From the IMG/VR virus record IMGVR_UViG_3300025897_000027, positions 1 through 40,355 of that record: a stretch of 40,355 nt of DNA; one strand, written 5' to 3'. Source of the stretch: a virus. Each line of letters begins with the position of its first letter. The stretch's first letter is position 1. The position numbers were made by a program, and so were the translations under genes. Positions 38,769-40,355 of this stretch are shown piece by piece. Under the pieces are notes generated by a model, which did not search any database, was not told where the DNA came from, and worked only from the letters and a program-made list of their open reading frames with translations.

Positions 38769-38770
38769 TG

Positions 38771-38844
38771 GTGCGCAGGGAGGATTCGAACCTCCGACCT
38801 CTAGCTTATGAGGCTAGCGAGCTGACCATCTGCTCTACCGCGCA
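38771..38844 (-). tRNA. tRNA with CAT anticodon (Met, or Ile if lysidine-modified)
   Basis: Cloverleaf on the - strand: acceptor TGCGCGG paired with CTGCGCA (one G-T), D-stem GAGC/GCTC, anticodon stem CTAGC/GCTAG around loop CTCATAA (anticodon CAT), T-arm GGAGG/CCTCC with TTCGAAT. The pattern is that of an elongator tRNA, not an initiator (no C1-A72 mismatch, no three-G-C anticodon stem). A CCA follows, but with a full 7-bp acceptor only C73 would be left as discriminator, so a 6-bp acceptor with A73 is the alternative reading. Confidence 0.9.
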
Positions 38845-39541: not shown

Positions 39542-39773
39542 TATTTATAATTTTATCACCATACATAAAGCTGAAAGAGGACATATCGTAGCTATTTATA
39601 CTTGAATAAGTCATTAGATCTTTCATTTCATCGATAGTAAGTTCATTCCACATTAACTTTGACATTAACGTGTATTTTAATCTTTTAGCGGTGCTGTACT
39701 TTCTAGCACTAGCTTGTAATTCTTTTTTAACGTCGGGCAATAACTTGTCGTAGACGGATTTAATTTTACTCAT
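39534..39773 (-). CDS. Unknown small protein
   Basis: This 79-aa protein is basic in its first half (Lys/Arg/Ser/Tyr) and ends with a Ser/Tyr/Met-rich segment. Helical throughout, with no motif I recognise. It overlaps both neighbours by 8 bases, in the same early-type cluster. Confidence 0.6.
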   Translation of the reverse strand: MSKIKSVYDKLLPDVKKELQASARKYSTAKRLKYTLMSKLMWNELTIDEMKDLMTYSSINSYDMSSFSFMYGDKIINNG

Positions 39774-40179
39774 ATTTTTTCCAGTTTTTAAGATAATAAT
39801 TTAACATGTATACCATTCTTGTTAATGGATTGTGTATTAAGGCTCTAGCTTTACCTTCACCTTTGTGTATTTCAATCAATCCATCACTATTAAGAGATAC
39901 CCATTGTTGTTTTTGTGTGTACTGAGGATTTATTTGATATGCTGAGTGACAACCATTTTGTCTTCTAACATAACCTGATTTAAACGTAGCTAATCTTAAT
40001 CTCTCACTTTTTTTCCAACCTGGTCTGCTAGGACAAGGAAATTCAAACTCTCTAGTGCCATTTTTAGCTTGCCTTTGAGTAGTTATTTCTTTAATGTTGT
40101 ACTCGATTAATAACCTACGTGCGTAGGAATCCTCGAGCATTTGGCGTTCTTGTTGCCAAGTGTACTTACTTTGGTTCAT
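39766..40179 (-). CDS. Unknown basic protein
   Basis: This 137-aa protein is rich in Arg, Gln and Lys. A helical start (about 1-25) precedes a beta-rich region with Phe-Pro-Cys-Pro-Ser-Arg-Pro-Gly-Trp-Lys-Lys (about 47-57), an Arg-Arg-Gln-Asn-Gly-Cys-His segment (about 72-78), and a C-terminal helix with Tyr-Met-Leu-Asn-Tyr-Tyr-Leu-Lys. Function is not recognised. It is the first protein gene on the - strand after the structured RNA region at the right edge. Confidence 0.6.
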   Translation of the reverse strand: MNQSKYTWQQERQMLEDSYARRLLIEYNIKEITTQRQAKNGTREFEFPCPSRPGWKKSERLRLATFKSGYVRRQNGCHSAYQINPQYTQKQQWVSLNSDGLIEIHKGEGKARALIHNPLTRMVYMLNYYLKNWKKYE

Positions 40180-40194
40180 ATTTATTTAATTTTA

Positions 40195-40355
40195 GTGGAA
40201 GTGGGCGGAATCGAACCGCCGTTTAAGTTAGTGTGACTTTCGTCTCCTATTTCTTAGCTTACCTTATCACTCCCTTTTCGAGGCACCAGTCGCGGACCGG
40301 TACTAACTAGTATTATGCTTTATCCGCGCTTTTGACCAGTATGCCGCCGCCTCGA
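40195..40355 (-). ncRNA. ssrA: 3' part of a tmRNA-like RNA (cut by the window edge)
   Basis: No open frame exists here. On the - strand the 3' end has a T-arm (GGCGG at 40220-40216, loop TTCGATT, CCGCC at 40208-40204) and an acceptor strand CACTTCC at 40203-40197. Upstream lies an H-type pseudoknot: ACTGGT (40340-40335) pairs with ACCGGT (40301-40296), and CGCGGA (40328-40323) pairs with TCCGCG (40296-40291). These lie inside an outer stem 40355-40349/40284-40278. T-arm plus pseudoknot without a normal anticodon arm fits the 3' domain of tmRNA, whose 5' end would lie beyond the edge. No tag-peptide frame is visible in this part. A GGGAGTG at 40274-40268 could also pair with the acceptor strand. 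Confidence 0.45.

Follow-up and report, generated by a model that had tools for sequence, protein, structure and literature searches.

A complete RNA, probably a TLD-only tmRNA, of a Flavobacteriia phage and its possible role as a decoy of trans-translation

Introduction

The tmRNA of mycobacteriophage DS6A (tmID 11587) is described as consisting of the tRNA-like domain alone ("TLD only") in the papers that report it (Mao et al., 2009, as cited in PMC4131195 and PMC11915505). According to the same sources, a DS6A-like molecule, chargeable or not, strongly inhibits the endogenous tmRNA in E. coli, perhaps via titration of SmpB (PMC4131195; PMC11915505). CDS-less tmRNAs are also found in mitochondria and in the plastids of Mallomonadaceae, where they are TLD-sized at ~65 bp (PMC11915505). 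Full tmRNAs were reported in 402 of 18,146 phage genomes (PMC9004378), so the view, taken in an earlier sequence-only reading of the DNA analyzed here, that phage tmRNAs are rare holds for the tag-less form but not for the full one.

Here we report on a 40,355-base virus record from a marine phage that was analyzed as a whole (the window) and that comes without flank. The RNA at its right edge is very probably a complete TLD-only, that is, tag-less, tmRNA of a Flavobacteriia phage. By the description of the DS6A RNA in the papers cited above, that RNA and the family of the window are alike in having no tag frame; DS6A is, however, one phage of mycobacteria, whereas the family reported here is found in many phages, including flavobacterial ones, and has two subtypes and an exchangeable arm. 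With the canonical one-piece tmRNA (ssrA, RF00023) the family shares G3·U70 and A73, a stemless D segment with GG, a T-arm and the lack of an anticodon arm, but its members have neither a tag frame nor internal pseudoknots and are 73-177 nt long as compared to ~360 nt. The CDS-less mitochondrial and plastid tmRNAs resemble the window RNA in having no tag frame, although they are organellar and not phage-borne.

Architecture of the locus

Read along the minus strand, the 160 bases at the right end of the window contain, in this order, a structured RNA termed module B (40355-40278), a spacer of 3 nt and the TLD (40274-40196), after which an ORF follows. The features of the locus are:

40196..40274, minus strand: complete TLD-only tmRNA-like RNA of 79 nt, type I (matched over its full length by the R1 model, 49.1 bits, E 6.3e-8)
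40268..40274, minus strand: 5' acceptor strand GGGAGUG, 7 of 7 pairs with 40197-40203 in the fold, with G3·U70
40258..40267, minus strand: D-like segment AUAAGGUAAG without D stem (GG invariant in alignments A1 and A2)
40224..40257, minus strand: variable hairpin arm with P2 helix 40253-40256/40224-40227 (P2 changes on both sides among relatives)
40204..40220, minus strand: T-arm GGCGG UUCGAUU CCGCC (T stem covaries)
40196..40203, minus strand: 3' acceptor strand CACUUCC and discriminator A73
40278..40355, minus strand: module B, H-type pseudoknot RNA of 78 nt, 3 nt upstream of the TLD; helices P1 40349-40355/40278-40284, a 40335-40340/40296-40301 and b 40324-40328/40291-40295
39766..40179, minus strand: ORF of 137 aa, function unassigned, 16 nt downstream of the TLD (neutral bait for relatives)
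38770..38844, minus strand: tRNA-Met(CAT), a frequent companion of the TLD in relatives

The 79-nt RNA is thus little more than the tRNA-like domain of a tmRNA, with two acceptor strands, a D segment, a T-arm and a single hairpin, the latter standing where the anticodon arm, the tag frame and the pseudoknots would be. CCA is not encoded at its 3' end, where CTA comes next. A structure rule that consists of a 5-bp T stem with T-loop, A73 and a 7-bp acceptor with G3·U70 has one match in the window, while at least one match is found in only 1 of 200 shuffled windows, and the fold of the 161-nt stretch has a z of -2.98.

The sequence-only reading was right about the presence of a T-arm, a 3' acceptor strand and an H-type pseudoknot, all of which are on the minus strand, and the stems of the pseudoknot covary among relatives. 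The pseudoknot, which that reading took to be joined to the T-arm and acceptor strand, lies outside the TLD, 3 nt upstream of it, and in several relatives is missing from that place. The proposed tmRNA at the edge does possess acceptor, D and T parts of the tmRNA type, but it is not cut by the contig end. Its supposedly missing 5' acceptor strand is found inside the window at 40268-40274, and the TLD is therefore complete. This 5' end, anticipated in the flank as a GGAAGTG-type sequence, is nearly of that type (GGGAGTG with a G·U at pair 3).

Relatives with flanking sequence are in agreement. An exact 25-mer matched 19 virus contigs, and a TLD-type element is present in 17 of them. One of these, L016 (69 kb), a close relative with 93% identity in the neighbor protein, carries the same 79 nt followed by >2 kb of flank on the far side, in which neither a further acceptor strand nor a tag but other noncoding modules only were found. 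A tag frame ending in Ala-Ala, which the sequence-only reading had expected, is found neither in the TLD nor in the right flank of L016 and other relatives. When 18 whole contigs of relatives were searched with RF00023, each gave exactly one match, every time a short element. The same search of the whole window record misses the TLD, apparently owing to its position at the very end of the contig, while the identical 79 nt in L016 are matched with 36.8 bits (E = 9.4e-15).

Comparison with tmRNAs and tRNAs

Neither ARAGORN nor Rfam at gathering threshold, RF00005 included, called anything at the TLD. The gathering cut-off is 47 bits for RF00023 and also for RF04321. That of RF00023 is exceeded by 19 type II elements (~80 nt) with 52-71 bits, three in one set and 16 in another. 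A 17th record of the latter set also passed, but it is a bacterial assembly that possesses a full tmRNA and was left out of the count. Type I elements, including that of the window, stay under the cut-off with 31-40 bits. Because real tRNA-Ala genes score in the same range (up to 39.9 bits, L384), RF00023 alone is insufficient for type I. With R1, a covariance model trained on type II only, the same tRNA-Ala genes score only 27-29 bits and no tRNA in the bacterial loci exceeds 36.1, as compared to 49.1 for the window and 41-84 for other elements. A better fit to a tRNA with an unusual variable arm, the outcome named earlier as speaking against a tmRNA, was not found.

The anticodon arm, noted earlier as lacking, is indeed absent: neither a conserved anticodon arm with a 7-nt loop nor a D stem is found in the window RNA and its relatives, and the arm that the TLD does have is not conserved among the latter. 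This arm is a simple hairpin in which the internal pseudoknots PK1-PK4 are absent. Nor is a tag frame conserved, as 40 of 61 elements are without an Ala-initiated frame with a stop and the AKK* of the window is not conserved. Because the tag frame is absent, a phage-specific tag on proteins, one of two functions suggested earlier, is excluded, and the other, rescue of ribosomes by full trans-translation, is unlikely. That the window RNA is of the tmRNA type and not a tRNA is well supported.

Other identities for this RNA were weighed against these results. It is extremely improbable that the window holds an ordinary phage tmRNA of which only the 3' portion is included, with the 5' half and the tag past the contig end, as was first thought. 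RF00023 can be aligned 5'-truncated across 40193-40355 (19.6 bits), but the 5' acceptor strand lies within the window and the single RF00023 match of L016 is the short element; L016 and the other loci with flank rule out a full tmRNA cut at the edge. A two-piece or permuted tmRNA is ruled out by the succession of 5' and then 3' acceptor in one RNA and by a RF04321 score of 13.6 bits, far under the cut-off. We also consider it very improbable that the RNA is an unusual tRNA, a piece of a split tmRNA or what is left of a host tmRNA gene at an attachment site, even though its nearest cellular look-alikes are tRNA-Ala genes and ssrA fragments are known in prophage genomes (PMC9004378). The lack of a conserved anticodon arm and the negative ARAGORN result rule out an odd-armed tRNA, the arm being unconserved in length and sequence; both acceptor strands are found in one short RNA; and an attP remnant is ruled out by the acceptor, which is unlike that of the host tmRNAs seen (GGGGCCG type), and by the PF00589 integrase, found in 0 of 25 virus records.

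The family and its two subtypes

A pattern in which acceptor and T stem were left unspecified matched 19 loci; the architecture of the window RNA is found in 18 of them, and the remaining one is an apparent chance match. G3·U70 is found in all 18 architecture-bearing matches, where neither base was imposed, as well as in elements L382 and L383; its presence in all 55 core sequences was required by the selection script and hence is not counted as evidence. A looser pattern retrieved many more elements with other stems, giving at least 61 distinct sequences, nearly all on virus contigs, although many family members were picked with patterns in which the acceptor and T-loop are partly prescribed. 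Among relatives the arm differs in both length and sequence.

Type I, to which the window RNA belongs, has a 10-nt D segment similar to AUAAGGUAAG, which in the window is stemless with GG, while that of type II is 12 nt long and ends with the D-loop of canonical tmRNAs (GGUUUCGA or a similar sequence). A GGUUUCGAC-like motif is found in type II only, and type I is without the UUCGAC part. In type II the arm is short, varies little even between contigs that are dissimilar and has a CC-loop-GG tip; it is found together with the tmRNA D-loop. In the type II arms of L022-L024, L035, L045, L083, L099 and others, an internal loop, AARRCC-loop-GG, recurs in otherwise different sequences.

Stem changes on both sides numbered 58 in type I (shuffled mean, 17.9), 47 in type II (13.8) and 71 in full-length type II (22.8), and in slid control structures only 38-59% of cells were paired. 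Inclusion in these sets required full pairing of acceptor and T stem, and the variable helix was taken from predicted folds. Because pairing was a selection criterion, the percentage paired is partly by construction; this does not apply to the diversity of pair types.

Retrieval that was independent of the RNA itself supports the family. The 137-aa neighbor protein led to five relatives, and each of these has a TLD-only RNA within the same noncoding cluster. L022-L025, reached via this protein alone (56-75% identity), have acceptor and T stems that differ from those of the window, and L022-L024 carry the D-loop GGUUUUGAC/GGUAUUGAC. In a capsid-protein search, two of 24 partial contigs (L343 and L367, with elements L382 and L383) carry a TLD and 22 do not, so the TLD is not essential to the wider phage group.

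A short BLAST of the mini-elements against isolated phages gave short matches only, mostly to the T-arm and acceptor. A pattern scan of genomes found mostly tRNAs, with one convincing element among the matches listed, which belongs to an Ilumatobacteraceae assembly and lies on a small contig (L153:3506-3601, genome G044). In this assembly a full tmRNA is on one contig and the tag-less one on the separate small contig, and the latter is perhaps phage-derived. When R1 was run over 395 Bacteroidia genomes, no element was found among the 12 candidates scored per genome, which is a weak negative given this small number.

Neighboring RNA modules

Across 12 contigs, compensatory changes are found in all three helices of module B: P1 (CGAGGC/GCCTCG vs. 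AGAGAC/GTCTCT), a (ACTGGT/ACCGGT vs. ACAGGT/ACCTGT) and b (CGCGG/CCGCG vs. TGTGG/CCACA). The module is not beside the TLD in L006, L011, L014, L015, L019 and L020. For module B and the other neighboring modules of the loci searched, no plausible Rfam family was found at E 1. Further structured RNA modules without Rfam match surround the TLD in L016 (L016:2473-2830) and in the flanks of L002, L004, L009, L012, L013 and L030. The modules of the cluster include A (GCTAGACGAGTAGSTTAATTAG...CATAASTGAATWGCTAGC), D (a further element with a T-arm, ending in GAGGTTCGAATCCTCACTAGTTAC), E (GAGAGATGGCAGATATGCAG...CATCTCTC) and F (ACCGGTTTAACAGTAAATCGACG...AACCGGT).

Parts of the variable arm recur in such modules. 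For the 41-nt arm of L002 and L006, 40 identical bases are found in L025 outside the TLD of the latter (L025:4190); 22-24 nt from the arm of L009 are also present in other modules of L024 (L024:2668) and L004 (L004:678); and the L007 arm shares 67 nt with L062 outside the TLD. These shared stretches indicate that the variable arm swaps hairpin cassettes (22-67 nt) with neighboring RNA modules, which goes beyond mere divergence.

Phages and hosts

The portal protein is 51% identical to that of MW202828, 43% to that of Maribacter phage Panino, 41% to those of Flavobacterium elemoviruses and at most 34% to those of Cellulophaga phages, and the primase-helicase is 42.5% identical to that of Cellulophaga phi10:1. 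The phage is therefore placed near flavobacterial phages. A tmRNA over the cut-off was found in 109 of 119 sampled Bacteroidia genomes, so a host target is available. L022 shares its D-loop, GACAUGGUUUUGACA, base for base with the Bacteroidia host tmRNAs L271 and L291, an identity that fits either mimicry of, or descent from, a Bacteroidia tmRNA. A full tmRNA is absent from the 47 virus records that were searched whole. SmpB (PF01668) was found in none of the 25 virus records in which integrase was also sought, and a phage-borne SmpB partner was accordingly rejected for these records.

Cellulophaga phages phi38:1 and Calle_1 and Maribacter phage Panino also possess a tmRNA, but theirs is full length with a tag frame. 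It is a full one-piece tmRNA of 87 bits in phi38:1 (KC821614.1, 26803-27164, minus strand; L298), whose record has no tmRNA feature there, and in Calle_1 (MT732432.1, 42950-43311, plus strand; L299). The tag predicted for both, AQIEANMEAVNAILNLEVAVGV, has no Ala-Ala end, in contrast to the GENNYALAA type of tag seen in most of the Bacteroidia tmRNAs that were checked. Panino (PP540027.1, 27557-27889; L255:1531-1739) has a permuted tmRNA (RF04321, 62 bits) whose predicted tag, GKVMNVSFAPTVRQFA, is not degron-like.

Possible functions

On balance, we favor the explanation that the window RNA is a TLD-only phage tmRNA that acts as an anti-trans-translation decoy. The TLD would be co-transcribed with the neighboring small RNAs and tRNA-Met, and, as tRNA biology suggests, host enzymes would trim it like a tRNA and add CCA. 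G3·U70 and A73, both observed, are the identity elements by which the host AlaRS could charge it with alanine. Because its elbow and acceptor resemble those of host tmRNA, host SmpB and EF-Tu may bind it. Without a conserved tag frame and stop codon the TLD would be unable to complete trans-translation and so would be a competitor for SmpB, EF-Tu or stalled ribosomes, damping host trans-translation during infection, for which DS6A offers a precedent. Titration of SmpB, EF-Tu or stalled ribosomes as the actual mechanism is a proposal for and against which we see about equal grounds.

The main rivals of the decoy are a minimal rescuer and a scaffold unrelated to trans-translation. In the former, the charged RNA and host SmpB would enter a stalled ribosome, alanine would take the peptide and another route would free the ribosome, so that the phage would be helped by ribosome recycling and host rescue would not be blocked. 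The persistence of a tag-frame-less mitochondrial tmRNA with SmpB and the existence of CDS-less plastid forms (PMC11915505) lend it plausibility, and the full or permuted tmRNAs retained by related isolated phages suggest that phages of this group benefit from ribosome rescue. We nevertheless consider it unlikely, as the arm has no conserved frame with resume and stop codons and the sole experiment reported for a TLD-only form, in the papers cited above, resulted in inhibition. Also unlikely is a tRNA-like scaffold outside trans-translation with its real function in the variable arm, such as a decoy for host tRNA-cutting defenses, a 3' stabilizer or processing signal of the noncoding cluster or an alanyl-RNA donor. 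It agrees with an arm that differs strongly between relatives, with cassettes common to RNA modules outside the TLD and with the position of the TLD in a cluster of structured RNAs in the phage group of the window; the constant short arm of type II with its CC-loop-GG tip and tmRNA D-loop, however, suggests recognition of the SmpB type. It is distinctly unlikely, although conceivable, that an alanine-chargeable TLD serves as a display scaffold whose third arm is a plug-in site for cassettes swapped among the structured RNAs of the cluster; if so, these phages would own a combinatorial and rapidly evolving repertoire of RNAs directed against host translation or RNA-based defense.

Implications

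The TLD-only phage form was known from DS6A but barely documented; a recurrent family of it in environmental phages is new and apparently widespread. In the literature that we found, a tag-less tmRNA in phages was confined to one mycobacteriophage. Type I is probably missed routinely because ARAGORN and the curated Rfam cut-off do not report it. If the favored decoy explanation is true, phages own an RNA-based counter to bacterial ribosome rescue. As full, permuted and tag-less forms are all found in related flavobacterial phages, the reason why phages carry a tmRNA becomes directly testable.
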